Assembly (NCBI GenBank): GCA_001771505.1
Contig: MEUA01000040.1
Location: forward strand, 1 to 64,000
DNA: 64,000 nucleotides
Direction: 5' to 3'
Origin: a candidate division WOR-1 bacterium RIFOXYB2_FULL_36_35
GTDB taxonomy: Bacteria > Margulisbacteria > WOR-1 > XYC2-FULL-46-14 > XYC2-FULL-37-10
Positions 12,114 to 48,726 of this stretch are shown here, one piece after another. Below the pieces are notes generated by a model. That model searched no databases, had not been told where the DNA came from, and worked only from the letters and a program-made list of their open reading frames with translations. How positions within the stretch are numbered: the stretch's first letter is position 1; every line of letters begins with the position of its first letter. The translations under genes were made by a program, and so were the position numbers.

Positions 12114-12839
12114 TCATTCTTCTTTTATTACAAACTCACTGTCAGGGATCCCTTTATTAACCCTGATATCTTCAAGCTTCATAACAACATCCATCTTGCC
12201 TCCCGGAACATTCAACCAAGACTTATTTTGAGAAAGAACCCAGATATCGCCTATCTTTTTATACTCTACTTCAGACTTAGTTAGAAGCTTATTATCAGTA
12301 TCATAAACTTCAAGTTTTGTAGGTACATAGCTAGAAGCATCCACATAAAATTTTACCTTTCCAAAAAGCGAGTTTGTATCTTTTGGCACTCCGGTAATTA
12401 TATAAGATTTTTTAAAAATCCCTTTTTCCTCAAGAGAAAGATAAAAAGTGTCCAAAATTTTTGTCTGATCAAGCGGATCTCCTCCTATATTTTTTTGTCC
12501 TGTTTTCTCCCTGATCTTTTGTAAATCCTGAACAAATTTTTGGCCCGTATCCTTATTTTCAATATACATTTTATTGCCATTGGTAATGGTAAGTTGTCTC
12601 ATGGGAGTTTCCATCATTATACGAACCTTATCTTTACCTTTAGTCAAGATAACTCCCTTTTGCTCAAGAGCCTTCCCCTCTTTGTCCGATTTTATTATAG
12701 TAACAACCTTCGCAGACATATCTTTAATTTTATCCTGGTTTTGGCGGATTTTAGAAATAATATCCTGAGCTGACGGAGCAGCAAAAACAACCGATGTAAA
12801 AAACAAAAAAAACAACAAGCAACTAAAAATTCTTTTCAC
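12114..12839 (-). CDS. LolA-like outer-membrane lipoprotein-sorting protein
   Basis: About 241 residues with a clear signal peptide (SCLLFFLFFTSVVFAA) and a LolA/LolB-fold mature part. Typical segments are AKVVTIIKSDKEGK, GVILTKGKDKVRIMME, NKMYIENKDTGQ, and the late KLEVYDTDNKLLTKSEVEYK. By family it is a periplasmic carrier that binds acylated lipoproteins in a half-barrel, implying an outer membrane. I start at GTG 12839, which has AAGGGG eight bases upstream. Its 3' end converges on pyrD, and it is divergent from the giant gene at 12950. It could belong to the broader COG2834 family rather than being true LolA. Confidence 0.8.
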   Translation of the reverse strand: MKRIFSCLLFFLFFTSVVFAAPSAQDIISKIRQNQDKIKDMSAKVVTIIKSDKEGKALEQKGVILTKGKDKVRIMMETPMRQLTITNGNKMYIENKDTGQKFVQDLQKIREKTGQKNIGGDPLDQTKILDTFYLSLEEKGIFKKSYIITGVPKDTNSLFGKVKFYVDASSYVPTKLEVYDTDNKLLTKSEVEYKKIGDIWVLSQNKSWLNVPGGKMDVVMKLEDIRVNKGIPDSEFVIKEE

Positions 12840-12949
12840 AAAAAACACCCCTTATTTAATATTTAACTATTTATACTAACATTCAAATTATCATACACAA
12901 GCACAAAATTCAATCTGAAACTTATAACCCTTCCAATCGATAGTAAAAA

Positions 12950-15900
12950 ATGCAAGCTCAAGTTAGAACGCAAAGAAAACCTATAAACTTTTTAAGGCTA
13001 TGCTATGCCGTAAATACAAACACCCCTCCTATCTCGGACGCAAATAGAAATAATGCCGCATTTCTGTTAAATCCGTATATTACATCTCAATCATTGATAT
13101 CTTCCAAAAAGGCAAGGAGATTATATGGAAAATGCAATCAAATATTAAATAATCTACTTACTGTAACAGGTTTACCAAGAGAGACATTTAAACTCCACAT
13201 AATAAAAGAAGAAATTCCTAATGCTTATATTTTTACAGGGAGTAGAGAGATCTACACGACTACAGCCCTTTTAGAAGGAAAAGATATGTCCGAAGGGGAA
13301 TACGCGGCGATTTTAAGCCATGAAATAGCGCATTACCTAAAATCTTCAAAAATTAAACCTCAATCTCAAAAAAATAAAACCTACAAATTATATGAAGTTT
13401 GGGCTAAATTAGCTCAAAGACAATTTGAGGAATTTGAAGCGGATGAACTGGCATTAATAATTATGGATGCAGCAGGTTATTCAGTAAACGAGGCTTTAAG
13501 TATCACCAAAAAATTATCTTTAAATACAAATCCAAATAGTACCGATACAAGATGGTTAGACCCAACAAGCACCCATCCCGACTGGGGAGCAAGGCTCGCA
13601 AAGACTGAATCAAATATTGAAAATCTAAAATTTTTATGGAAGAACATAAACAACGTCAAAAAACAACTGTTAAACACAAAAGAAAAATCGCAACTTTACA
13701 CCCATTCTTTATTAGAATCCTCTATTGCAAAAATAAAAAAAATCGCCCTGCCAACAGAATTAGATCTTCCATCATCTGTAAGATTAATTAAGTTTCATAA
13801 ATTAAATATACATTTATTCCCTGTTTTTTGGGAAAGATTGAAAAAAATGGCAAGGGATCCAAGTTTAAGAGACCCTTTTAATCTTGAAACGGTAGACTAT
13901 CTTTCACAAAAATACTCTTTTAAAAAAGATTTTATTGTATTTGTATTTTATTATATTTTGCATAAACAAAAGATCGAACTTTCTGATCAATTAAGCAATT
14001 TCATATTACAATTAAAAAAACGCGAATTACAAGGAGACTTTGTATCAACCCTATATCTTAAAGCATTAATATGTGTTATATGCTCAAAATCCTGCACGGG
14101 GAAAACTCTTATCCAAAAGATAAAGTGGCTTAGAGAAAAATGTAATATAAAACAAGAAGAAATCCTCTTGGCGCTAATGGAGTTGCTTGATAATGTATCT
14201 TTTTTATTTTTTGAGGATTTCAACCTTGAAGAAGCAAGCCCCCTCTTTCTTTATTACATTAATAAATTACTCCCTTTCAATTATAACCTTGAAGAGATTC
14301 TCGCCCCTTTTTCGTATTCAGACTTAAGAGATTTATTTTTGCTTAAAATATTAAGTGTCCACACAATAATCCCGGACGCAGAAAGATATGTGGATCTATC
14401 ACTTGACAAATTTTTTAAAAAAAAGCTGTCTACTAAAGAATTAGTGGCAAGATTAAAACCAGACGCAATAAGATTATTCAATGCTCCGCCATCTGATGAT
14501 ATCTACAAACCCACAGAACGACTTGGTGAATATCCCTATGATCAAGATATGATGGAGATGCATGACTTAGATTACTTTATACTAGAGGAAGGTTTTCCTT
14601 ATAGCATAAAAAAATTCGAAGCCTCTTTTAGAGAAGAAAATACAACAGCAAAAATATTGGCAGTTCATACACAAGAAAGTATTATAGAAGCTTATCTAAA
14701 AAGAAAAAAAACAGCAGAGAAACACACCAGCAAAACAATAAAAAAGAGAGCTTTAACTTATAGCAGACTGATTCTAGCTAAAAAATTAGAAAAAATTCCC
14801 GCTGACCAATGGAACAACCATACAATTAAATTTATTGAGGCGCTTCCTCCTTCAAATGAAAAGAACCTTTTAGTAATATTAATGGCAAAAGCAGGAAGGA
14901 GGAACGTTTTAGACTCGGAATTAAAATTTGAAACAGTTAAAATGAAAACATCCTCCGCATCATTTTTAGATTTTTTTGGATTTGTCGACACTGACGCGAC
15001 AGAAGAGATATATCCTACAGGACAAAGGATGCTGGATAGTTTTCTTGCTGAAAGATTGCCAAAAACCGGAACGATAGAACTTAAAACCGCCTGCAGTTTA
15101 ATTCCACGCCCAAGTCCGGGAAGAGACAAAATTTTAGATCGCGTCGAGTCCGAAGATTTAAAAGAGGCCGAACTTTTACTTAATGCCTATTTTAGTCCGC
15201 CTGCCGCGTACGCAAAAGCCTATCAGATTTCAAAGGGATGGATCAATTCTCCTTCAGGACAAGAGACAAAAACATTTGAAGATATATTTAAACTGACAAA
15301 AAAATACCCATCACTAAAAAGAAGGATGACAAAAGAATGGACAAATAGATTTGGAGTATCAAAAACTATCTACCCTAAAGCAGTAAAAGCTTATTCAGAA
15401 GTAGACGCGACAGATATTTTAAAAGGAATTACGTTCTCCGAAACAAAAAAAGCAAGTGTTGCCTCCAAAATAGCAATATGCTTGGGCACGTTTACTCCGG
15501 CAATTACTAAAGAAGATTTCTCTTTTTTAAGCATACAAAGACAAGATTCCGAGACTTCTCCCGAAACTTATGAAGAAGAAGATGATGATGAAAGTAGTTA
15601 TGAGCAAAGAGAAGACCCTATCGGAAGATATTATGATCCAAAAGAAATGCTTGCAATATCCAACTATTACCCGCTCTTACCGTCAAGTATTCTTATGGTA
15701 TCTCAAATAATACAAGAAAGGATCCCTTTTTCAATACACACAATACCGATGGTCGATGATATGCCGAGACCTCAACCGTTCTTCAAAAAAAGTTCAATAG
15801 AAGAAGAGATTTCCCAAGAAATAAAAGAGATGAAACAATGGGACATTACTAAATCATTTTTCAGTTTTATGAGCGCGGTAGGCTGGGAAGAATCCTCAGC

Positions 15901-17548
15901 TTTTTATGAAGAGGCTTTAATAGATTTGTCGGAAGACAAAGAAATTTTAGCTCGACTTGAAAAAATATTCTTAAAAGGAATAGGGCTTATTCTTCAGACA
16001 GAAAAAGTCTCTTTAAGCGCCGCAAAAGCCACAGAAAATGGGCTGGAAAATCTTCTGAAAAATCAAAACTTGCGGACCAGAATAAAAATATGGGCAAAAA
16101 TATTAGCCGGAATAGCGCAAAAACAACCTATAGAAGAAATAACCAGGGAGGCTGTAAAACCGCTAGGAATAGACGGGAAAAAACTTATGCAGCCAATCCA
16201 TTCCTTAACATCAGGAGTTGAACCAAAACTTGAACAGGCAACAAGACTCTCTTTAAGTGACACATCCTCTTTGGATCTTTTAGACGGTATAAAATTTTTG
16301 GCCTTTAGGGGACTTGACCCTTTTGCCATACACGAGAAATATTCCCTTCTAGGATCAGGATCCATAAGGACAGCTATATCAGGCGAAAACGGAAGGATAC
16401 ATGATGAAGCATTCCTCATAGTACACGCTCCCGCAATGGATGTAACTACAAGAGATGGAATATACATGTTTATTACAGATATGAGAAAGAAAGAAATATA
16501 TTTCCCGCTTACTCCGGAACAATATATCATAGGATCAAGGCAGGCTGAAGACGAAAGGAGAAATGGCTTTTTAAACCACAATGGATTTGGAGAATTCTTC
16601 GGCTGGAAACTTGGAAATTTAACTATTCCTAAAATACTAGAAGCACATCCGGAACTTGGTTACGCAAGGATGGAATGGGTAAAAGGAAAATCATTTAATG
16701 CTCTAACAAAAGATGAAAAAGATAAATTTTCTCCTTTGGTTATTGAAGGAGTAACAGCACAATTTATGAACCCTACACCCAAAGGAGTTTTCTTATTCAA
16801 CCCGGAATTTCATGAAGGGAATCTAACTCTTAGCATGGATAATAAGTTATATCTTACAGATTGCGGACTTACTACCTTTGTCACAGCAAGCGAATTACTC
16901 TCTTTTATCTCAACCATTTCCTCTTTCAGGGGAGAAGGATTGCCTGGAGCAGCCGCAATGCTGTTGCAGCAAGGAAATATACAACATCTCTCCCAACTAA
17001 GAAAAGGAAAGGAATCACAACTTATATCAGCGTTAAAAGTAATATCCCAAAAAAGAGAAATTGTTTCCTCTCCAGAATCCCTCCTTTCCGAAGTAGCAGC
17101 AATAGCAGCAAAAACATCAGATTTTAAGATCACTTCAGGCTTTGACTCACTCTCAAGAGGGTTTCAATATCTCGCCCCATACATAAGACGATCTGGACAA
17201 ATTCCCTCTTTAGCGTTTATACCTCAAATACAAAAAATGCCTTTGGCAGATGAAATAAAAGAAAAACTAGCGCCATCTTCGGATGATAAAACAAGCAAAA
17301 CTTTTCTCCCCTCAGGAATGGAAATAGGAAAAAAACTAAGAGACGGAAGCATAAATACGTTGGGAGTAATTACAACCCCAACCACTCTTTTCACCTTTAA
17401 AACAGAATTAGGAGGAAAAGAGATCCAAACAACACTTGTAGAATGCCAGTTAGGGGAAGGAACTGTCTCAAAAGTGCCTCCATCTCTTTTAATGGTAAAA
17501 AAACAAGGGGGATGGGTATCTTATGAAGATTTTTTAAAAACACAATAA
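12950..17548 (+). CDS. Giant protein: N-terminal M48-type zinc peptidase, C-terminal kinase-like domain
   Basis: 1532 residues, no signal peptide. Residues about 80-230 look like an M48/Ste24 peptidase: ILSHEIAHYLK puts the zinc HEIAH at 124-128, and the third ligand is expected in EFEADELALIIMDAAGY (about 161-177). A long unrecognised middle (about 240-1130) includes acidic DDDESS runs. Near residue 1134, LGSGSIRTA resembles a glycine-rich loop. MEWVKGKSF looks like a hinge region. FHEGNLTLSMDNKLYLTDCGL (written in parts: HEGN at about 1288, DCG at about 1304) resembles the catalytic loop and metal motif of ABC1/UbiB or APH-type kinases. The 3' end overlaps convergent maf by 15 bases. A peptidase fused to a kinase-like module is unfamiliar to me; both activities are inferred from motifs only. 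Confidence 0.7.
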   Translation: MQAQVRTQRKPINFLRLCYAVNTNTPPISDANRNNAAFLLNPYITSQSLISSKKARRLYGKCNQILNNLLTVTGLPRETFKLHIIKEEIPNAYIFTGSREIYTTTALLEGKDMSEGEYAAILSHEIAHYLKSSKIKPQSQKNKTYKLYEVWAKLAQRQFEEFEADELALIIMDAAGYSVNEALSITKKLSLNTNPNSTDTRWLDPTSTHPDWGARLAKTESNIENLKFLWKNINNVKKQLLNTKEKSQLYTHSLLESSIAKIKKIALPTELDLPSSVRLIKFHKLNIHLFPVFWERLKKMARDPSLRDPFNLETVDYLSQKYSFKKDFIVFVFYYILHKQKIELSDQLSNFILQLKKRELQGDFVSTLYLKALICVICSKSCTGKTLIQKIKWLREKCNIKQEEILLALMELLDNVSFLFFEDFNLEEASPLFLYYINKLLPFNYNLEEILAPFSYSDLRDLFLLKILSVHTIIPDAERYVDLSLDKFFKKKLSTKELVARLKPDAIRLFNAPPSDDIYKPTERLGEYPYDQDMMEMHDLDYFILEEGFPYSIKKFEASFREENTTAKILAVHTQESIIEAYLKRKKTAEKHTSKTIKKRALTYSRLILAKKLEKIPADQWNNHTIKFIEALPPSNEKNLLVILMAKAGRRNVLDSELKFETVKMKTSSASFLDFFGFVDTDATEEIYPTGQRMLDSFLAERLPKTGTIELKTACSLIPRPSPGRDKILDRVESEDLKEAELLLNAYFSPPAAYAKAYQISKGWINSPSGQETKTFEDIFKLTKKYPSLKRRMTKEWTNRFGVSKTIYPKAVKAYSEVDATDILKGITFSETKKASVASKIAICLGTFTPAITKEDFSFLSIQRQDSETSPETYEEEDDDESSYEQREDPIGRYYDPKEMLAISNYYPLLPSSILMVSQIIQERIPFSIHTIPMVDDMPRPQPFFKKSSIEEEISQEIKEMKQWDITKSFFSFMSAVGWEESSAFYEEALIDLSEDKEILARLEKIFLKGIGLILQTEKVSLSAAKATENGLENLLKNQNLRTRIKIWAKILAGIAQKQPIEEITREAVKPLGIDGKKLMQPIHSLTSGVEPKLEQATRLSLSDTSSLDLLDGIKFLAFRGLDPFAIHEKYSLLGSGSIRTAISGENGRIHDEAFLIVHAPAMDVTTRDGIYMFITDMRKKEIYFPLTPEQYIIGSRQAEDERRNGFLNHNGFGEFFGWKLGNLTIPKILEAHPELGYARMEWVKGKSFNALTKDEKDKFSPLVIEGVTAQFMNPTPKGVFLFNPEFHEGNLTLSMDNKLYLTDCGLTTFVTASELLSFISTISSFRGEGLPGAAAMLLQQGNIQHLSQLRKGKESQLISALKVISQKREIVSSPESLLSEVAAIAAKTSDFKITSGFDSLSRGFQYLAPYIRRSGQIPSLAFIPQIQKMPLADEIKEKLAPSSDDKTSKTFLPSGMEIGKKLRDGSINTLGVITTPTTLFTFKTELGGKEIQTTLVECQLGEGTVSKVPPSLLMVKKQGGWVSYEDFLKTQ

Positions 17549-18097
17549 TCTTTTTAATTTTTCTACCGGCAAGCCAACTACATTGTCATAATCACCGTCT
17601 ATCCATTCTATAAAAGGATCTTCTATTTCTTGAATGCCGTAGGCTCCGGCTTTATCTAGCGGTTTCCCCGTATCTACATATTCAATAATTTCTTTTTCAT
17701 CTAATTTTTTCATTTTAATTTTTGTTATCTCAAAATCTGATTTTACTTCTAAAGTGTCGGCGTCAACAAGGGCTATTCCTGTTATAACCTGATGAATAGT
17801 ATCAGACAAACTCTTTAACATATAAATTGCATCTTTCTTAGAACTAGGTTTCCCGAGAATTTTATCTTTTAGCACAACAATAGTATCCGCCCCTATAACA
17901 ATAGCGTTGCTAAGTTGTAAAGCGACCTCTTTTGCTTTAAGAATTGCTGCAGAAACAGCAAATTCGTCGGGACTAGAAAGTTGTATTTTGGATTCATCAA
18001 CACCACTTGTAATTACTTCAAAATCTGTAATAATTTTTTTTAAGAGTTTTTTCCTGCGAGGAGAAGCTGAAGCAAGTATAATCCTTTTATTTTTCAT
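17534..18097 (-). CDS. maf: Maf-like nucleoside triphosphate pyrophosphatase
   Basis: House-cleaning enzyme that hydrolyses non-canonical NTPs (dTTP/UTP or m7GTP types) and is linked to septum inhibition. The 187-residue protein has the Maf hallmarks: ILASASPRRKKLL at the N-terminus, SGVDES, AIVIGADTIVVL, GKPSSKKDAIYMLKSLS and VITGIALVD. The C-terminal GAYGIQEIEDPFIEWIDGDYDNVVGLPV completes the fold. Its last 15 bases overlap the end of the convergent giant gene. It shares orientation with the small Lys-rich gene and alr upstream. Confidence 0.95.
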   Translation of the reverse strand: MKNKRIILASASPRRKKLLKKIITDFEVITSGVDESKIQLSSPDEFAVSAAILKAKEVALQLSNAIVIGADTIVVLKDKILGKPSSKKDAIYMLKSLSDTIHQVITGIALVDADTLEVKSDFEITKIKMKKLDEKEIIEYVDTGKPLDKAGAYGIQEIEDPFIEWIDGDYDNVVGLPVEKLKRLLCF

Positions 18098-18305: not shown

Positions 18306-19397
18306 TCACCTATATATCCTAGGGACTCTCTTTCCAATTCCACATATTATCTCATAACTTATAGTTCTATCAAGTCTTGCTATTTCATCTGCGGTAATTG
18401 ACTCAAGTCCTTGAGCTCCTATTAAAACAACATCTTCTCCAATTTCAACATTCATATCTCCTACATCAACCAAGGTCATATCCATGCTTATAGAGCCAAC
18501 AACAGGACATCTTTTGCCTCTTATTAAAACATGGCTGCGGTTGCTTAAACTACGGCTATATCCATCAGCATAGCCTACTGGAATGGTCGCAATCGCAGTC
18601 TCTTTTGATGTAACATATGTCCCCCCATAAGACAGCATAGTACCTTCCGGAACACGTTTCAAATAAACTATTCTCGTTTTAAAAGAGAGAGCCGGCCTTA
18701 AAGTAATAAAACGATGCGTCCCACCTGAAGGATATAACCCATACATCATAAGGCCAATTCTAACCATGTCAAGGTGAGTATCAGGATGAAAAAGTGTGGC
18801 AGCAGAATTGGCAGCGTGCTTAATAGGAATATTATTAAAACGAATAATAATATTTTTAAATTTATCAAACTGCTCTTTAGTATAGTTGTCTCCGTGTTCT
18901 TCGGCTTTTGCAAAATGGGTAAACAATCCTTCCACAATTAAATTAGGCAGTGAAGAAATTTTGTTATAAAGAGCTACCGCTTCCGATGGAGCAACGCCAA
19001 CTCTCCCCATACCTGTATCTATTTTTATATGTATATTTGATTTTCTGTCTCTTTTAACAGATTCATCAGAAAGAGCTTTTGCCTCTGAAAAGGAATAGAC
19101 TGTTTGAGTTAAACGATAATGTACAATTTCATCAACAACAGAAGTCGGAGATTCCGTAAGAATCAATATAGGAAGCCTTGTCCCTGCTTCTCTAAGTTCT
19201 AAAGCTTCCCTTAAATTTGCAACTGCAAGATAAAAAACCCCAGCTTCCATAGCCGCCCGTGATACAGCCACTACCCCATGTCCATAGGCATTTGCTTTAA
19301 CAACTGCCATAAAACGTGTTTTATCCGGAATAATTTTTTTTACTTCATTTATGTTATGCTTTATGGCTTCTAAATCAATTTCTGCGTAAGTATTCAC
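18306..19397 (-). CDS. alr: Alanine racemase
   Basis: PLP enzyme that makes D-alanine for peptidoglycan. The 363-residue protein starts YAEIDLEAIKHNI. The PLP-binding lysine is in MAVVKANAYGHG (about residue 34). Other conserved segments are HIKIDTGMGRVGV, HAANSAATL, VRIGLMMYGLYP, the second catalytic Tyr in LSYGGTY, IPVGYADGY, and SISMDMTLVDV. The GTG start at 19397 has AGAGG close upstream and lies inside the end of the PHP gene (23-base overlap), so the two are translationally coupled. Cytoplasmic. Confidence 0.96.
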   Translation of the reverse strand: MNTYAEIDLEAIKHNINEVKKIIPDKTRFMAVVKANAYGHGVVAVSRAAMEAGVFYLAVANLREALELREAGTRLPILILTESPTSVVDEIVHYRLTQTVYSFSEAKALSDESVKRDRKSNIHIKIDTGMGRVGVAPSEAVALYNKISSLPNLIVEGLFTHFAKAEEHGDNYTKEQFDKFKNIIIRFNNIPIKHAANSAATLFHPDTHLDMVRIGLMMYGLYPSGGTHRFITLRPALSFKTRIVYLKRVPEGTMLSYGGTYVTSKETAIATIPVGYADGYSRSLSNRSHVLIRGKRCPVVGSISMDMTLVDVGDMNVEIGEDVVLIGAQGLESITADEIARLDRTISYEIICGIGKRVPRIYR

Positions 19398-20205
19398 TTA
19401 AACCTCTTAATTTTAAAACCGTTTCATCTGGAACAGTAATGCCTCCGAGAGAAATTTGCCTTCCTGAATTGGAACCGTGAAAATCTGTCCCCCCCGTAAC
19501 TAACAATCCCTCTTTTTGAGCAATTGCTTTATAACGTTCAACTTGCTCTGCTTTATGTGATGGGTAAAAAACTTCCAGACCTCTAAGCCCTACCGATATT
19601 AATTCGGGTATAATGTTATCACAATTTGAAAGCCCGGGATGCGCGAAAACGGCAACCCCACCCGCATCAACTATAACTTTAATAGTATCAACAGGAGTAA
19701 GTTTATAATGAGAGACATAGGCAGGACCATTAAACCCAATGTATCGGTCAAAAGCTTCTTTAAAATTTAACACAGCGGCATTTTTTATTAAAATTCTGGC
19801 CACATGAGGCCGCCCCGGAGAATCATTTCCTGCAAGATTAAAAACATCTTCAGAAGCAATCTTTAATCCAAGAGCGTTAAGCTTTTCAACCATAGTACAA
19901 ATACGATCTCTCCTTCCCTGTTGAATCTTGCTTAACAAATTCAAAAGAGAATAATCGTTAATATCAAAGAAATAACCTAATATATGAACTTCTGTTTTTG
20001 GTATCTCCGTGGTAAACTCAATTCCGGGAATAATATCCACCCCTATTTTATCCCCCTCTTCAACCGCCCTCAAAACCCCTGCTACTGTGTCATGATCTGT
20101 AATCGCAATAGAGGTAAGCCCTGAGGCTTTCGCTAATTTTACTACATCTTCAGGTGAATCTGTGCCATCAGAGAGGTTTGTATGAATATGCAAATCTGCG
20201 GGCAT
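19375..20205 (-). CDS. PHP-domain phosphatase (TrpH/YciV-like)
   Basis: 276-residue PHP metallophosphoesterase. Metal-binding motifs are in order: DLHIHTNLSDGT, IAITDHDTVAG, IIPGIEFTTE, ARPH-like GRPHVARILI, VAVFAHPGLSN, and the closing GGTDFHGSNSG. Known relatives hydrolyse 3',5'-nucleoside bisphosphates or degrade RNA 5'-to-3' (RNase AM). Upstream, GATAAT lies eight bases from the TATAAT-rich start context, with no ribosome binding site, so the message may be leaderless. Coupled to alr downstream by overlap. Confidence 0.88.
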   Translation of the reverse strand: MPADLHIHTNLSDGTDSPEDVVKLAKASGLTSIAITDHDTVAGVLRAVEEGDKIGVDIIPGIEFTTEIPKTEVHILGYFFDINDYSLLNLLSKIQQGRRDRICTMVEKLNALGLKIASEDVFNLAGNDSPGRPHVARILIKNAAVLNFKEAFDRYIGFNGPAYVSHYKLTPVDTIKVIVDAGGVAVFAHPGLSNCDNIIPELISVGLRGLEVFYPSHKAEQVERYKAIAQKEGLLVTGGTDFHGSNSGRQISLGGITVPDETVLKLRGLSEYLRRN

Positions 20206-20249
20206 ATAATTATATTATCAAATTTTTGCTGAATTTTCAATAAAAAATA

Positions 20250-20310
20250 AGATGGATCCCCGCTTTCGCGGGGATGACAAATTGCAAAAACTATCATTAC
20301 GCAACAAGCC
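20250..20310 (-). repeat. Half copy of MITE family B
   Basis: GGATCCCCGC/GCGGGGATGAC hairpin followed by TTGCAAAAACTATCATTACG and CAACAAGCC. It is the left half of MITE-B in inverted orientation, in the gap between the PHP gene and the next minus-strand gene. The remaining bases to 20406 show no gene. Confidence 0.75.
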
Positions 20311-20406
20311 TAAAAGGGAAAAGAACGGAAGAGAAAAATTGGGGCTGTGGCAAATTTAGGGGATTTAGAGGACAGAATTTAGTAAATTTATTATAAGTAA
20401 AGCTTC

Positions 20407-20435
20407 TTAACCCCGATTATAATAATCGAGGTTAA
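20407..20435. repeat. P1 palindrome at a stop codon
   Basis: Arms TTAACCCCGATTAT and ATAATCGAGGTTAA. The right edge supplies the TAA stop (20432-20434) of the minus-strand gene that follows. Confidence 0.8.
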
Positions 20436-21001
20436 TTTTTAAAATCAGACATAAACATAATATAAATCAAATAATTAAAAACCTGAGGAGAAAATTTAAT
20501 GTCTAAAAGTTTAACAGCAAAAGCTATTGCCGCGATATCAGAAAGGCTCTTTATATAAAACCCAAAATTAAATTTTCTTTTAAATTTATATCTCTTATAT
20601 ATAAATCCGGTTTTAACTTTCTCTAAATGATGAAACAATTCAAGAGAGACCAAAAGACCAAGCATCTTAGGCGCAAGCTCCGGTATAACTATTTCTGAAC
20701 ATAACCTGTCTAAAGCATCCCTATATATTATTATCTCTTTTTCTTTAAATCTATATTCACTTCTCTTAAAATTTCCGCTATCTATACCAACTATATTTGC
20801 TCCTAATTTTAAAGCAATTTTCCTGGGATCACTATCTCCAAACTCAGACAATACCCAATCTGCTATTTCGTAACCTAAAGAAATAACATCAAAAACAACT
20901 TCCAATCTTTTATCTACGGAAAGATTTAGATACATCTTATCTTTAGCAAGCAAAAGCATCGCAAAAGAAATTAAATTACGTTTTTCTATTTCAGTAATCA
21001 T
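20432..21001 (-). CDS. Hypothetical protein with degenerate HExxH-like motif
   Basis: Unrecognised, about 189 residues. A segment LLVSLELFHHLEKVK sits in a helical context like that of HELFH metalloproteins, but the first His is replaced by Leu, so zinc peptidase activity is doubtful. The C-terminal half is helical and hydrophobic (SLSDIAAIAFAVKLLDIKF). I take the ATG at 21001 with AAGGA upstream; an in-frame TTG at 21013 is the alternative. It lies directly after the metallophosphoesterase gene. Its stop codon lies in the P1 palindrome, so the C-terminus may have been reshaped by repeat insertion. Confidence 0.6.
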   Translation of the reverse strand: MITEIEKRNLISFAMLLLAKDKMYLNLSVDKRLEVVFDVISLGYEIADWVLSEFGDSDPRKIALKLGANIVGIDSGNFKRSEYRFKEKEIIIYRDALDRLCSEIVIPELAPKMLGLLVSLELFHHLEKVKTGFIYKRYKFKRKFNFGFYIKSLSDIAAIAFAVKLLDIKFSPQVFNYLIYIMFMSDFKN

Positions 21002-21018
21002 TTGATCCTTCAATCATT

Positions 21019-43017: not shown

Positions 43018-46000
43018 TTATTGCAACTCTGCCTCAAAAACCTTGGGAGAGCCGGCCCTTTTTCCTGTCACAGAAACATTTAAAATTCTACCACTACCAG
43101 TCTCTCTTACTGCCAACATAATCACAGCCCCTCCAGCCCTTTGGAAGAAAGAATCATTATTTAAAAGGGCCCCAAGAGTAACATCACTTGAGCTCCCAGT
43201 GCTCCCATTCATTACTAAGGTAAATTTATCATCATTTCTATTTATTGCTCCTTCCAAAAGAGCACAAACGCTCTCCAAAACAGGACGATTATCTGCTAAA
43301 AGCGCCAATGTGTCAACCGCACCCTGAGGTCCACCGGAACCACTTTGATACCCAAGCAACTGATTTGACCCTTCAGTAAATTTTTTCATAGAAGGCGCCC
43401 TTTTGGCAATTACTTTTTTCAAAGCGTCGGTCTTTCCTTGTGTTTCTCTCTCCAACAACAATGCCATAGCAATAAAAGGTCCAGGATTTTCTTTGGCAAT
43501 TTGATCCTCCATAAGCGATTCTAAGGCTGCTTTAAGCTGACCTACACGTTCAGGCGTATTTGCCAATTTTACTAGGCTATCAAATTCTGTCTTTAACCAA
43601 TTAATCATCTTTGGTTTTAATTCATTATTATCCCGATATGTTTGAGCAAGTTGAGATATAAAATCAAAGGCTTGATAAGCCTGATCATAATTGACCTCAT
43701 AAGCTTTTTTAGCGCTAACAACAATCTCAAAAACTGAAGGGAATATAGTATCTCTAAAAGAGTCATCATTTAAGACTTTCTCGGAAATACCTTTTAACAA
43801 ATTAAGATCAATTTCTTTAAAAAGATTCTCAAACACAGTTTCCCAAAAGCCAAACTGATCTTGACTTGTAAAAGCTGAGCAGTTGACATCCATTAGCGCC
43901 ATTAGATGGTAGCCATTGGTTCGAGCTCTCTCCGCTTTTTGCTTTATTCTATAATTAGCGCGAGTTGAAGTTCTAATATCTCTTAAAAAATTACGTCCTG
44001 CGTCAGTACTAGGCTGTGACATATTATGTAAAAAATCATACATAACAAAAACCAACCCACTATCTCCTCTTGAAGAAATATCTTCCAAGATACTTACCAT
44101 AGTATCTAAATCGTTTGGCATCTCCATCTCTGTCACAGCTTCAAAGTTTTGATACAGCTTTAACCAAAACTCCCTAGCCGATCTAGCAGTGCCAATAAAA
44201 TCAAGTTGTGCAGTTGGATCAGAAAGACCACTTCCTATACTCCCCGTCATTCTGTTGCTAATTGCATTTTGTAATAAATTTAATGGGCCTCCCGAAATTG
44301 CCACATGCTTTATTAATCTACTAATAAAAACGTCCTGTTTTGGAGAACTGTTTATATCCCTCATAAGCTGTGCTGCTTCAGTAAAACCTAATCTTTCGGG
44401 CACAACATTAGATATTGGAACATCAAATTCTCTTATAAAATCAGAAACCCGATTATTTAAAGCTTCTTCTTCAGCCTGTGATACGCTTACACCTTCATTT
44501 GTATTAAAAACAAAATTAGCAGTATAGCCTCCTGTTACTTTAACTTCAAAACGAACACGATTGCCCTCTTCAGAAGAAGCTAGAATAGTAGAATCCTCTC
44601 GTTCTAATAATCTGCACAAATAAGGATCAGCAGCAATTTTAGGCTTTATCCCGTTAAGTTTAACACCATCCATCCCACCAGCATAGCGAATAGCATTTCT
44701 ACGTTGTAATGTTGCAAAAGTATCTGTAACTGTTGATAAATCTAATTGTTGTTTATCAATCCTGAGTTTAGATGCCAGTTCAGAAATGTTATTCCTAATG
44801 CCACCTTGCGCAATCATCATTTCTGCTGTTCTATATTCCGACATAAAACTCATATCACTCGCGCGCAAGGCATCACGCAACAACACATTAACACTAACAT
44901 TTTGCAACAGAGGGGACCCCTGAGGAAAAATCAACTTAAAACCATCTCCAATATATGTAGCATAATCATCATTAGTAACATCTCCGCTATCCTCAGCAAC
45001 CCCTTTCTGTTCAGCTACATAAGCGCTTAAAGCTTTTCTTACTGAGCCAACAATAGGATCTGTCTCCAAGAAAGAAGCAGGCTGAACTTCCCATCCCGCA
45101 ACATGAGAAGACAAGAACTCTCGCATATAATCTGTATTTTTTGTATATCCCCCGTCATTATTCCATCTGGTTATATCAAATATTTCAGTATTAAGCTCAA
45201 TAGGAGCTCCCACTGGAGAAGAACTGCTAGGCAAGGCAACTTGAGGATATACAAAAGGAGCTTCCATCCAGTAACTAATATTCCCCTCTTCAATATAAAA
45301 GCCAATTCTAGCTTCAGGCCCTGCTATATCTATTAGTTTACCAAGCCCTATCAGTAGAGACTCGTTTACCACCACTCCCTCCGCATTAGCAGCTTCCACA
45401 ATCCTTCGCGCAGCTGCTGAATTACTTACAGCCTTTTCAGAGTAAAGTTTCATCAGTTTTAACTCCCTATCTGTCAATTTACACGGGATAGAAATTTTAA
45501 AACGAACTTTATCTCCAGATAAAAGATCCCATTCACAGAGGCTGTTTGTAGCTTTTTTCGCTGTTATAACCCTATTAATAAAAACTTCATCCCCATTGCC
45601 TCTTCTAGCCAAAGAATCAAAGCTTTCCTGTTTTTTGCCAAAATCGGTCCTAAGACTATAATCAAACAGGGTTTTGGCCGCCATGCTTACTAAACCTTTA
45701 GCAACGTCTTGCGCCGCTGTAGCAAAGTCATCTGTAACACCAATATCCCCTAAGTGCTGACTGAATAATTTTAATCCAATAGAAGCAGCTGTCTTTCTAA
45801 AGTTAACCGTCGTCTTTTCAACAGCGGTAATAAGTTTTCCTCCCTGAGCTATTTCCGATGGCTCAAAGTCAAGGGATGTTCCACGATCAACAATTTTTTC
45901 TCCGTTTAACAAACGTCTTATCTCTTCCATAGATACATCATAACTGGCATAAACCTGATTAAGTGCGACGGCCTGATCATGAAAATGCTTAACCAATCCA

Positions 46001-48726
46001 CCTGCTTCACCCTCCTGATCGGGAAGAAGAGACAAATCAGGATCTCCTAATTCAACAATATCTACTTCAATGGCTTCATTATCAACAGATACAACAACTC
46101 TTGTATTGCTTGGTGATTTAGAGCTAGACTCAAAAGCTTTAACCAGTCTATCGCTTACTTCATTGCCAAAAATCTCTTCAATACCACGTCCGCCACGATC
46201 TTCTAAGTCAGGAACCTTTTTTATGAGTAAATCATAAACCTCATCAGCAATTTCCACATCACAGTTTTTCATCTTCTTCTGTTCTTCTATAAATTTTCTG
46301 GCCGTTATCCGTATAATCGCCTGTGCCATCTCCATGCTAATACTATTAAAAGCAAAAATTCCTCCACCAACCATAATACGAGCTAAAAACTCAGGCCTAT
46401 AGCCTGCAACTTGATATGCCTCTCGAATTATCTTAGCATTTTCCTTTTCTATTCTTTTGAGTTCTGCAGCCCTTTCTTCAACAATACGACGACGTTCAGC
46501 CAATGCATTATCACTCTCTGCCCGATCATTTAACCATCCTCTTATTTCAGCTAATTCACTTACAGCAGAAAGAGTATCTAAATGATAATCTCCTTTAGAA
46601 ATATTCTCCTTAGAACTACTAAGATATGTATCCAATGCTTTAAGAGAGGGAGCTTTTTCATCCCCTTCACCAGGGCTACCTATCCCAACAGCAAACAACT
46701 CCCTTTTTTCCTTCAACTCTTCTAACACCAGCCTACGATGAGAAGATAACAACTTATCATATCTTTCAGACCCTGAAAGATTAACAGCTGCAAAAACCTC
46801 TTTATCTCCACGGCTACGCGCATCCAAAAGAGTATCAAGTTGGGCTAAGCCTGTCTTGTCTCCTTCAGGAAAAACACCTCGTTGCAGATCATCAGTATGC
46901 TCAGTTAAAAACCTTCTAACCAAAGCTTCCTTTTCAGAAACTTTCGCTGCTTCATCAAATCTGGTTTCCTGTTGCAAAATTTCACTATCGCGCGCAAATC
47001 TTATTGCAAGCGCCTCTATAACAGAAACGGTCTCTCTTCGAAACCCTAACAATTCATCAAACCCCTCATCAATTTCACCCATACCTGTATATATTAATCT
47101 CTCACTTCCAAGATTACTTGTAAGAATAACAGCTGTCTCTCTAAAATCAATGACTTCACCCTTTCCTGTTTCAGCCGTAGCCGTATCCAAAATTCCAAGC
47201 AAAACCTTCTGAGCATCAGGATGCATTTTTTCAAATTCATCAATCAAAAATACACACTGACCTCCTTTTGCTTTAATTCTATCAAAAACACAAGGATCCC
47301 CATATCCAATCCAAGTTGCCGTCGCACCTGTCAATTTAGTCAAATTTTGCTTTTCAGCATATTCTCCACCATTTATTTCAACTAAATTATCTGCGTTTTT
47401 ATATAATACCCGAGCTAAACATTTTGCAGTTTGAGTTTTACCGGTACCTGTTTTCCCTGCAAAAAGGCCAACAAAAAGAGGTTTTTTGGGGTCTGAAAGT
47501 CCCAGTTTTGCCCTTTTAATACGAGTAGATAAAGTCTCCATAACCACATCCTGCCCCACAACCTCCTTTTTCAATTCATCAACTAAAGAGTCCAGTAATT
47601 TTCTGTCTAAAGCCTCAAAATCTTTAGAGGGGAGTCCTGTCAAAACAGCAAGCGCTTCATAAACAATATCTTCCGTTAACACCAACGCCCCTTCCTGTTC
47701 AGCTGTTTTTTTATCTTTTAAAAACTTTTTAATATTCTCTGACAAATAATCCAAACAGTCTTTTGCTGATCTCTCATCTTTCTGTTCCAATGCCCTTAAA
47801 TATTCATTAAATATCCTTAATAAATTATTACAAGTCATCCTAAAACTAACATTCAACATATTACTTTTTGTCGTCAACCTAGAAACAGACTGTTCCAAAA
47901 GTTTAATTGAACGAGAAGGGTTATATCCACTCCGCTGAGCATCAATATATCTTACAGCCAACTCAACTATAAGATTTACCATGGCATCAGGAACTTCAAG
48001 AGTAACAGGTAGCGCAGCATATTTTGATCTTGCCAACATAGTCTTTCTATGCTGGCGCAAGATTAACTTTGTCAAACTCGGTGTAGCCTCTGGAATCGGC
48101 ACAATAGTCCAACGCCTATCCATAGCAGGAATTATAGATAAATATTTTTTATGTTCCTCAACTGTTGTCGCAAAAATAAAATGGCTATTAGGATCATTCA
48201 ACATCGGCTTCATAAGTTCAATAATTGGAGAAGAATCTCCAACTTCTGTCTTCCCTAAGCAATGTGCTTCATCAACAAAAATCAATGTATTAGGCTTTTT
48301 CTTTAAATATGCTTTTAACTGTTTTATTTTTTCAGCAGCACTCCCATTCGTAGCAGACAGGTCTCCAGCATCCATATACATTATTTCAATTGTAGAATTA
48401 GCCTCTCCAGTGATAAAAGCAGGATCCATCTGTTTTTCCATAAACTCTTTTGCAATATATTTTGCTAAAACAGTCTTTCCTGTCCCGGGAAAACCTAAAA
48501 GCATTACATTCCCATTGCTGTCAGTTGCCAAAATAGACAATATATCCTCTATCTGTTTATCACGTGCAATAACAGGATCTACTTCTTCAAGGTTAAACAT
48601 CTCTTGAAATGGAGTTAAAAATTCAGGTATTTCAACATCCCCCGCACCATTTGCAGCAGAAGGAACATTCTGTATGTTAGCAGAGACAATTTTATTATAA
48701 AGAAAATATAATCTGTTTTTCAGCAT
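43018..48726 (-). CDS. Giant ClpB-like double AAA+ protein with long unknown C-terminus
   Basis: 1902 residues. Residues 50-300 are a first AAA+ module: Walker A LLGFPGTGKT (78-85) and Walker B TLIFVDEAH. Residues about 375-860 are a Clp-type D2: EVVGQDVVMETLSTRI, Walker A GKTGTGKT (424-431), CVFLIDEFEK, and sensor 1 TSNLGSE (536-542). A charged insertion of about 230 residues (545-775) separates this from the sensor-2 side (GYRPEFLARI, DRGGRGIEE). No Clp N-domain is present, and the M-domain is short or absent. The last 1040 residues are unrecognised, with two beta-rich stretches that look alike (GDKVRFKISIP, GNRVRFEVKV). It should be an ATP-driven unfoldase. The ATG follows the previous stop by four bases. 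Confidence 0.8.
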   Translation of the reverse strand: MLKNRLYFLYNKIVSANIQNVPSAANGAGDVEIPEFLTPFQEMFNLEEVDPVIARDKQIEDILSILATDSNGNVMLLGFPGTGKTVLAKYIAKEFMEKQMDPAFITGEANSTIEIMYMDAGDLSATNGSAAEKIKQLKAYLKKKPNTLIFVDEAHCLGKTEVGDSSPIIELMKPMLNDPNSHFIFATTVEEHKKYLSIIPAMDRRWTIVPIPEATPSLTKLILRQHRKTMLARSKYAALPVTLEVPDAMVNLIVELAVRYIDAQRSGYNPSRSIKLLEQSVSRLTTKSNMLNVSFRMTCNNLLRIFNEYLRALEQKDERSAKDCLDYLSENIKKFLKDKKTAEQEGALVLTEDIVYEALAVLTGLPSKDFEALDRKLLDSLVDELKKEVVGQDVVMETLSTRIKRAKLGLSDPKKPLFVGLFAGKTGTGKTQTAKCLARVLYKNADNLVEINGGEYAEKQNLTKLTGATATWIGYGDPCVFDRIKAKGGQCVFLIDEFEKMHPDAQKVLLGILDTATAETGKGEVIDFRETAVILTSNLGSERLIYTGMGEIDEGFDELLGFRRETVSVIEALAIRFARDSEILQQETRFDEAAKVSEKEALVRRFLTEHTDDLQRGVFPEGDKTGLAQLDTLLDARSRGDKEVFAAVNLSGSERYDKLLSSHRRLVLEELKEKRELFAVGIGSPGEGDEKAPSLKALDTYLSSSKENISKGDYHLDTLSAVSELAEIRGWLNDRAESDNALAERRRIVEERAAELKRIEKENAKIIREAYQVAGYRPEFLARIMVGGGIFAFNSISMEMAQAIIRITARKFIEEQKKMKNCDVEIADEVYDLLIKKVPDLEDRGGRGIEEIFGNEVSDRLVKAFESSSKSPSNTRVVVSVDNEAIEVDIVELGDPDLSLLPDQEGEAGGLVKHFHDQAVALNQVYASYDVSMEEIRRLLNGEKIVDRGTSLDFEPSEIAQGGKLITAVEKTTVNFRKTAASIGLKLFSQHLGDIGVTDDFATAAQDVAKGLVSMAAKTLFDYSLRTDFGKKQESFDSLARRGNGDEVFINRVITAKKATNSLCEWDLLSGDKVRFKISIPCKLTDRELKLMKLYSEKAVSNSAAARRIVEAANAEGVVVNESLLIGLGKLIDIAGPEARIGFYIEEGNISYWMEAPFVYPQVALPSSSSPVGAPIELNTEIFDITRWNNDGGYTKNTDYMREFLSSHVAGWEVQPASFLETDPIVGSVRKALSAYVAEQKGVAEDSGDVTNDDYATYIGDGFKLIFPQGSPLLQNVSVNVLLRDALRASDMSFMSEYRTAEMMIAQGGIRNNISELASKLRIDKQQLDLSTVTDTFATLQRRNAIRYAGGMDGVKLNGIKPKIAADPYLCRLLEREDSTILASSEEGNRVRFEVKVTGGYTANFVFNTNEGVSVSQAEEEALNNRVSDFIREFDVPISNVVPERLGFTEAAQLMRDINSSPKQDVFISRLIKHVAISGGPLNLLQNAISNRMTGSIGSGLSDPTAQLDFIGTARSAREFWLKLYQNFEAVTEMEMPNDLDTMVSILEDISSRGDSGLVFVMYDFLHNMSQPSTDAGRNFLRDIRTSTRANYRIKQKAERARTNGYHLMALMDVNCSAFTSQDQFGFWETVFENLFKEIDLNLLKGISEKVLNDDSFRDTIFPSVFEIVVSAKKAYEVNYDQAYQAFDFISQLAQTYRDNNELKPKMINWLKTEFDSLVKLANTPERVGQLKAALESLMEDQIAKENPGPFIAMALLLERETQGKTDALKKVIAKRAPSMKKFTEGSNQLLGYQSGSGGPQGAVDTLALLADNRPVLESVCALLEGAINRNDDKFTLVMNGSTGSSSDVTLGALLNNDSFFQRAGGAVIMLAVRETGSGRILNVSVTGKRAGSPKVFEAELQ

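Follow-up and report, generated by a model that had tools for sequence, protein, structure and literature searches.

A UbiB-like pseudokinase fused to an M48 peptidase in a candidate division WOR-1 bacterium, and sister proteins with an apparently active UbiB-like domain

The stretch of DNA analyzed here, hereafter the window, comprises positions 1 to 64,000 of contig MEUA01000040.1 from the candidate division WOR-1 bacterium RIFOXYB2_FULL_36_35 (GCA_001771505.1; genome G000 of our set, 1.95 Mb, contig C40). On its forward strand lies an open reading frame (ORF) of 1,532 codons at 12950..17548 that starts with ATG and is immediately preceded by in-frame TAG TAA; full-length homologues in two further genera mark it as a real gene. 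The first-pass annotation had described its product as an M48-type peptidase fused to a UbiB/APH-like kinase domain. The most fitting description is that of an M48 peptidase fused with a UbiB-like pseudokinase; sister proteins have a UbiB-like domain that appears to be active. The anatomy of the window protein is well supported; the mechanism is what we infer from it. In the following, the window protein and its two full-length homologues are referred to as subfamily A, and three proteins of the same layout encoded in genomes G008, G036 and G046 as subfamily B; together they are the one-chain members. The features of the gene are:

12950..17548, + strand: whole gene, encoding M48 peptidase, long helical middle, UbiB-like pseudokinase and small beta domain (open frame, Pfam, two full-length homologues)
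13106..13624, + strand: M48 peptidase domain, residues 53-225 (Pfam PF01435, E 1.2e-12; PDB 3c37, E 4.7e-10)
13319..13333, + strand: HEIAH zinc-binding/catalytic motif, residues 124-128 (HExxH in six of six one-chain members)
13430..13444, + strand: EFEAD, residues 161-165, with the third zinc ligand Glu161 (ExxxD in six of six; Glu161 and Asp165 invariant in subfamily A)
13574..13594, + strand: HPDWGAR, the HPx4R active-site plug, residues 209-215 (HPx4R in six of six; an M48 motif according to passages of PMC7950410)
13667..16069, + strand: middle region, residues 240-1040, mostly helical in a low-confidence model, no PDB profile match
15104..15127, + strand: PRPSPGRD motif, residues 719-726, shared with subfamily B, each protein of which contains it twice
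16127..16984, + strand: UbiB/ABC1-like pseudokinase domain, residues 1060-1345 (hhalign E 4.4e-11; Pfam ABC1; VIA-align COQ8A)
16181..16192, + strand: KLMQ, residues 1078-1081, counterpart of the UbiB KxGQ motif, K and Q invariant
16352..16363, + strand: GSGS, residues 1135-1138, a Gly-rich loop where UbiB has an Ala-rich loop
16811..16822, + strand: HEGN, residues 1288-1291, with Asn1291 as the Mg-binding Asn; Asn1284 stands at the position of the UbiB catalytic Asp
16859..16867, + strand: DCG, residues 1304-1306, counterpart of DFG, invariant
17297..17545, + strand: C-terminal beta domain, residues 1450-1532, KOW/SH3-like in the model (10-residue blocks with a predicted local distance difference test score, pLDDT, of about 45-85; matches to Spt5 KOW domains)

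All motifs named in the first-pass annotation were found, namely HEIAH, EFEADELA (from residue 161), LGSGSIRTA (1134-1142), HEGN and DCG, and their core residues are invariant across both homologues. The latter stem from G002 and G004, share 41% and 31% identity with the window protein and were obtained from 95 genomes, its own included. In Pfam, the strongest M48 stretch covers residues 63-139 and ABC1 falls at 1223-1321, with nothing convincing detected between them. NCBIfam yields weak matches only, among them BepA and UbiB; the PHROGs matches are likewise weak, and the families concerned have no known function. PADLOC has no match for the window protein, and phmmer finds none among the PDB sequences. 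No membrane segment or signal peptide was found by Kyte-Doolittle hydropathy (highest 19-residue mean 1.51; 0.32 for windows starting within the first 39 residues), as had been anticipated for a peptidase without membrane segments.

The M48 assignment is borne out by the Pfam match, which reaches 48.5 bits against a curated cut-off of 20.3, and by the signature motifs. A profile built from the three members of subfamily A retrieves the M48 peptidase 3c37 from the PDB and, at E 0.02-0.05, BepA structures. According to passages of PMC7950410, M48 peptidases coordinate their zinc through HExxH, one Glu and a His that belongs to the HPx4R plug; the plug is conserved across all M48 enzymes and its movement is needed for function. 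The pattern HExxH-x(30,140)-HPx4R plus ExxxD is present in all six one-chain members. The earlier label of a Ste24/HtpX-type enzyme had to be given up, as the domain is nearer to soluble peptidases of the BepA/3C37 type: a membrane peptidase was ruled out since there is no transmembrane segment and soluble M48 enzymes matched better, and the HtpX equivalogs, whose cut-offs are 341-369, give 13-15 bits. With BepA/3C37-type enzymes the window protein shares HExxH, the Glu ligand, the HPx4R plug and a soluble catalytic domain, and in BepA, too, the M48 domain is joined to helical parts, there repeats. The window protein differs in carrying about 1,300 further residues including the UbiB-like domain, and it scores 26 against a cut-off of 570 with the NCBIfam equivalog for BepA. 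Because no signal peptide is seen it is, unlike BepA, probably cytoplasmic. By analogy with the known families, its M48 domain would be an active Zn-dependent peptidase.

The kinase-like end is close to the detection limit of Pfam: ABC1 (PF03109, cut-off 22.9 bits) is matched with E 7e-5 and 22.5 bits by the whole protein and with 24.4 bits by the C-terminal part alone, while one of the homologues scores 15.3 bits and the other shows no match up to E 1. Profile comparison is far clearer. A profile of residues 1040-1532 aligned by hhalign with six UbiB/ABC1 proteins scores 90.2 over 340 columns, which span the region before the kinase core, compared with 35.7 over 78 columns for six Hanks kinases of the same order, at most 27.2 for 100 column-shuffled UbiB alignments and 17.0 for the reversed alignment. 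Pkinase (PF00069) has no match to the window protein up to E 10. An AlphaFold model of the kinase-like part, built with three sequences, is poor (mean pLDDT 52, predicted template modeling score 0.41); Foldseek ranks COQ8A first with a non-significant E of 0.025, and VIA-align, applied to this low-confidence model alone, places COQ8A in the top three rows (Z 8.4, 8.1 and 8.0), followed by MSMEG_1954 (6.7), Rv3197 (6.1) and ADCK3 (6.0), with ordinary kinases at 6.3 and below; values of Z below 8 may reflect merely a common arrangement. MSMEG_1954 and Rv3197 are proteins which we take to be UbiB/ABC1 family members. The fold predicted by this low-confidence model is kinase- or UbiB-like; of the two outcomes that the first-pass annotation named as refuting, a fold unlike a kinase did not occur. 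A Hanks or APH kinase was rejected in favor of a UbiB-like one, as Pfam, hhalign scores and structure matches all favor UbiB, so that of the original UbiB/APH proposal the first half stood and the second fell. As judged from profiles and model, the C-terminal domain is specifically UbiB/ABC1-like and not Hanks-like.

An alignment with 18 of 25 UbiB-length ORFs, which also underlies the kinase tree discussed below, reveals what subfamily A has kept and what it has lost. The beta3 Lys, the alphaC Glu and the catalytic Asp, present in 18 of 18 reference UbiB rows, are absent from all three members, being replaced by Ile, Leu or Glu, by Gly and by Asn, respectively. HxGN and DxG are kept, including the Mg ligands Asn1291 and Asp1304 (3/3), so that the other refuting outcome, missing catalytic residues, applies to the three lost positions and not to the Mg-binding pair. 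The Lys and Gln of KxGQ are likewise kept in 3/3, with Met, Leu and Met in place of the Gly. According to passages of PMC4718504, UbiB proteins are distinguished by KxGQ in an N-terminal extension, an Ala-rich loop and ExD, together with all traditional catalytic residues; in ADCK3, which prefers ADP, one Gly restored in the Ala-rich loop reverses the preference and permits autophosphorylation. Subfamily A has GSG(S/T) in 3/3 in place of the Ala-rich loop and reads ExE for ExD in 3/3; the placement of ExE and alphaC depends on MAFFT, and hhalign aligns that stretch somewhat differently. The UbiB equivalog TIGR01982 (cut-off 487.55) gives 16 bits for the window protein. In summary, the domain resembles UbiB/ABC1/COQ8 (ADCK) proteins in its predicted kinase-like fold, the Lys and Gln of the N-terminal extension, HxGN and DxG, and departs from them in its Gly-rich loop, its ExE, the loss of catalytic residues, the fusion to a peptidase and the lack of a visible membrane anchor. 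Since defining features of UbiB are missing, we do not file it as a UbiB member; it is UbiB-like and probably derived from UbiB. Given that the three catalytic residues are absent throughout, the domain is, as far as sequence can tell, a pseudokinase in subfamily A.

This pseudokinase is maintained and not debris, to judge from the constraint upon it: pairwise identities within subfamily A amount to 50/40/41% in the kinase-like part, 43/38/38% in the M48 part and 37/26/29% in the middle, which makes the kinase-like region the best conserved part of the protein. With the three-member profile, the full-length protein was found in three of the 74 genomes of the phylum, and the middle region in the same three. 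The kinase-part profile (1040-1532) matches 44 of 383 genomes, the three of subfamily A and otherwise weakly in frames of 461-768 residues; the six weakly matching ORFs that were examined are the six UbiB proteins of the hhalign comparison.

Between the two domains lie about 800 residues outside any database family. A profile search of the PDB with the middle region found nothing up to E 5, and a model of residues 1-1090, mostly helical with a mean pLDDT of 43, has no significant Foldseek match (best E 0.085, various alpha-solenoids). At the other end, residues 1450-1532 match Spt5 KOW domains in VIA-align with Z up to 6.3; the Spt5 chains concerned are stated to be the KOW part for one row and presumably are so for the others. 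This small beta domain, missing from the first-pass annotation, is seen in subfamily A alone, and the contig of the third member ends before it.

Subfamily B emerged from a PF03109 search of nine genomes of the order, eight of which gave matches. One ORF each from 10 of the 24 loci around these matches was scanned with Pfam; nine turned out to be Hanks kinases to which the ABC1 model had cross-matched, whereas the tenth, from G008, is a true M48-ABC1 protein. An expansion of ABC1 domains in the order was dropped as an idea on these grounds. The same PF03109 search found no standalone UbiB in the window's own genome, as the other four matches there are Hanks kinases. The G008 protein has 1,543 residues and matches M48 with E 7.3e-6 and ABC1 with E 4.6e-26. 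Searched against 383 genomes it retrieved two more full-length proteins, in G036 and G046 (M48 E 3.5e-6 and 8e-7; ABC1 E 3.4e-29 and 9.2e-33); 107 genomes were matched, three in the M48 part and the others in the ABC1 part alone. The ABC1 scores of 91.9, 102.1 and 113.8 bits all lie above the Pfam cut-off, and the catalytic set K, E, D, N, D is kept in 3/3, with KxGQ reading KxAQ. The main idea of the earlier annotation is thus rescued by homologues that share the layout and have their catalytic residues intact.

A profile of subfamily B run over the phylum added G040, where a 625-residue ORF (M48 E 4.4e-10) overlaps an 864-residue ORF (ABC1 E 7.5e-21) in a different frame (L124, 3838-8245). 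The overlap falls at a run of five G, one A and eight C; a sequencing error, slippage or two real genes are possible explanations of the split. The B profile aligns with the second ORF over 453 columns, reaching well before the ABC1 domain (E 7.9e-24). This ORF and the three B proteins obtain 96-126 bits with TIGR01982, all below its cut-off. In total, the M48/UbiB-like layout occurs in seven of 74 genomes of the phylum, six times in one chain, and profile and sequence searches found it in none of the roughly 309 genomes outside the phylum (383 genomes altogether). The one-chain members are six uninterrupted frames of 1,472-1,591 residues in six genomes, one of them cut by a contig end, with the domains in the same order. 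A contig scan with two peptide patterns matched the two A loci already known and a Bacteroidetes locus, the latter only in its M48 part, and does not by itself establish absence elsewhere. As a separate observation, a 684-residue kinase-like ORF, open at one end, adjoins in G029 a 773-residue ORF that looks by eye like a PP2C phosphatase (L126, 553-4940, - strand).

Large proteins with a kinase-like module are found in the order outside this family as well. Giant Hanks-type kinases (Pkinase-AAA-TPR-GAF-HisKA) resemble the window protein in lineage, in size and in carrying a kinase-like module in a very large protein, and differ from it in an N-terminal kinase, a strong Pkinase match and the lack of a peptidase. 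In G004, which belongs to this order as well, L070 and L087 hold such Hanks kinases of 1,597-1,665 residues with Pkinase, AAA, TPR, GAF and HisKA, and L074 two adjacent kinase-like ORFs of about 1,690 residues each. The window itself carries a further long ORF of 1,902 residues on the reverse strand (43018-48726), with AAA at 74-189 and AAA_2 at 417-546; roughly 1,350 residues lie beyond these two AAA+ domains.

The neighborhood of the gene comprises:

12114..12848, - strand: LolA-like neighbor
17534..18097, - strand: Maf neighbor, overlapping the 3' end of the gene by 15 bases
18306..21013, - strand: alr, PHP and a conserved ORF of 193 residues, also beside the subfamily B gene of G008

In G008, as in the window, the gene adjoins PHP (55% identity), alr (73%) and the 193-residue ORF (48%). 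The last (window 20432-21013, - strand; L069 2429-2986, + strand) matches no Pfam family above the cut-off, and an ELFHHLE stretch is conserved between the two copies. G036 and G046 have no neighbors in common with the window gene within the stretches compared. In G002, homologues of lolA, pyrD and pyrK also adjoin the gene, in an order inverted relative to it; a starch-synthase-like glycosyltransferase ORF stands there between pyrD and pyrK (L017, 5557-7185) and is absent from this place in the window. G001, which belongs to the same family and is rated 100% complete, has pyrK-pyrD-lolA and maf without the gene: the 1,640 bases from lolA to maf hold an unrelated ORF of 516 residues and no recognizable remnant. 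As G001 keeps the locus without it, the gene is dispensable at the family level.

As to function, we put forward that the protein is a soluble M48 peptidase regulated by a nucleotide-sensing UbiB-like domain in one polypeptide, a proposal to which we give an even chance. That a few related genomes share the layout hints at a protease which may be under the control of a kinase-like fold. The M48 domain would be an active peptidase restrained by its HPx4R plug, and the long helical middle would probably serve in substrate recognition or as a relay of movement. The UbiB-like domain may bind Mg-ADP or Mg-ATP without acting as a kinase, and no phosphotransfer would be expected in subfamily A. Its nucleotide or ligand state would then shift the helical middle such that the plug opens or closes; that the two ends communicate through the middle is conjectural. 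ATP hydrolysis seems within reach of the UbiB-like domains of subfamily B and of the G040 pair, for which reason the ancestral form was probably an ATPase-controlled peptidase. Such a mechanism is reasonable because plug control in M48 peptidases and Mg-nucleotide binding by UbiB proteins offer analogies (passages of PMC7950410, PMC4718504 and PMC7263595); for UbiB proteins, the latter two describe Mg-nucleotide binding, with trans-kinase activity not demonstrated. This accords more with a regulatory role than with a peptidase bearing a protein kinase of its own.

Several observations weigh against it. The two structure models are of poor quality (mean pLDDT 52 and 43, the N-lobe below 50), and neither has a Foldseek match at E 0.001 or lower. 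Without the beta3 Lys and the catalytic Asp, subfamily A may be unable to bind a nucleotide. Subfamilies A and B are not linked by whole-protein profile or sequence searches at E 1e-3 or 1e-6, and the M48 tree, which took in all 22 other M48 rows, one per place, sets them apart with weak support and neither shows nor rejects their union (approximately unbiased test, p 0.342). Their kinship rests on the hhalign comparison of the M48 parts, one motif of the middle region, one shared neighborhood and an unstarred tree branch.

The M48 and kinase-like parts may have been joined repeatedly, with A, B and the G040 pair as independent fusions in a lineage fond of large fusion proteins; the profiles of A and B that miss each other at E 1e-3, the M48 tree and the different giant kinase fusions of other genomes of the order all agree with this. 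We regard it as possible, yet a single origin of A and B appears fairly likely. Domain order and length agree, the M48 parts of A and B align at E 1.3e-9 in hhalign (the kinase modules only at E 9.5e-4), and the kinase tree unites A, B and G040 against 18 UbiB proteins with support of 91/87, on long branches and without a star. The genes of G008 and the window, moreover, both adjoin alr, PHP and the 193-residue ORF. A further link is provided by the PRPSPGRD motif. A position matrix built from the six motif instances of subfamily B scores highest, in each of the three A proteins, at one common position of the alignment, PRPSPxRD (15.8, 9.9 and 6.2), the maximum being 7.3 among 110,922 windows of other ORFs. 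Two unrelated ORFs of the 64-kb window reach 6.4 and 6.3, which places the third score within chance, and the window protein has a second site that scores 11.2 although it is not conserved; the shared position therefore outweighs the scores as evidence. In the G040 ORFs the matrix singles out nothing (best 0.5). Looser versions of the motif occur three times each in the A proteins of G002 and G004, and we do not claim a defined repeat family in the middle region.

Rather unlikely, in our view, is a UbiB-like domain that is a mere structural or ligand scaffold, binding no nucleotide, or else a lipid or isoprenoid, and placing the peptidase on its target as the TPR domain does in BepA. Such a role would be consistent with the joint loss of beta3 Lys, alphaC Glu and catalytic Asp, with the work of UbiB relatives in isoprenoid lipid metabolism (passages of PMC4718504 and PMC7263595) and with the handling of substrates by the helical TPR domain of BepA (passages of PMC7950410). 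All three members nevertheless keep the Gly-rich loop, the Asn and Asp that bind Mg, and the Lys and Gln specific to UbiB, which points to a retained nucleotide site.

We consider it improbable that the protein serves in anti-phage defense or another conflict, with the sensor domain arming or releasing the peptidase. Its spread is patchy (seven of 74 genomes), the G040 ORF matches PADLOC peptidase_U41 (E 6.6e-6), and the M48 parts of the B proteins and the G040 ORF weakly match the phage-exclusion protein Lit (E 0.0002-0.007, far below the cut-off), but those to Lit could be due to the HExxH...HPx4R motif alone. The window protein itself matches nothing in PADLOC and nothing among phages, plasmids and viral contigs, and its neighbors are mostly housekeeping genes at a partly conserved locus. 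An artefact, be it chance juxtaposition, chimeric assembly or a decaying gene, is hardly credible even with draft genomes, some of them metagenome-assembled, and a G040 version split at a homopolymer run, for the recurrence of the layout in six uninterrupted frames of the same order, with the kinase-like part most conserved, already refutes it.

A fusion of an M48 or other metalloprotease with an ABC1/AarF/UbiB domain is not described in the literature searched, whose coverage leaves out most subscription papers, so that the architecture appears to be undescribed, as the first-pass annotation had supposed; in a survey of the proteases of a parasite (PMC8621943) both terms occur once each. UbiB/ABC1/COQ8 proteins are widespread; their true partners are unsettled, as is their output according to passages of PMC4718504 and PMC7263595. 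A natural fusion names a partner for a UbiB-like domain. We tentatively envisage a nucleotide-gated metallopeptidase in one chain, of which ATPase-competent versions (subfamily B, G040) and a pseudokinase version (the window protein) were both kept in one phylum. If true, this would be the first direct link of the UbiB family to proteolysis. If the two ends interact, peptidase activity with and without nucleotide would give a simple readout of the function of a UbiB-like domain, and the paired branches, one with intact catalytic residues and one without, would constitute a natural experiment from which the features retained by a UbiB pseudokinase could be read.

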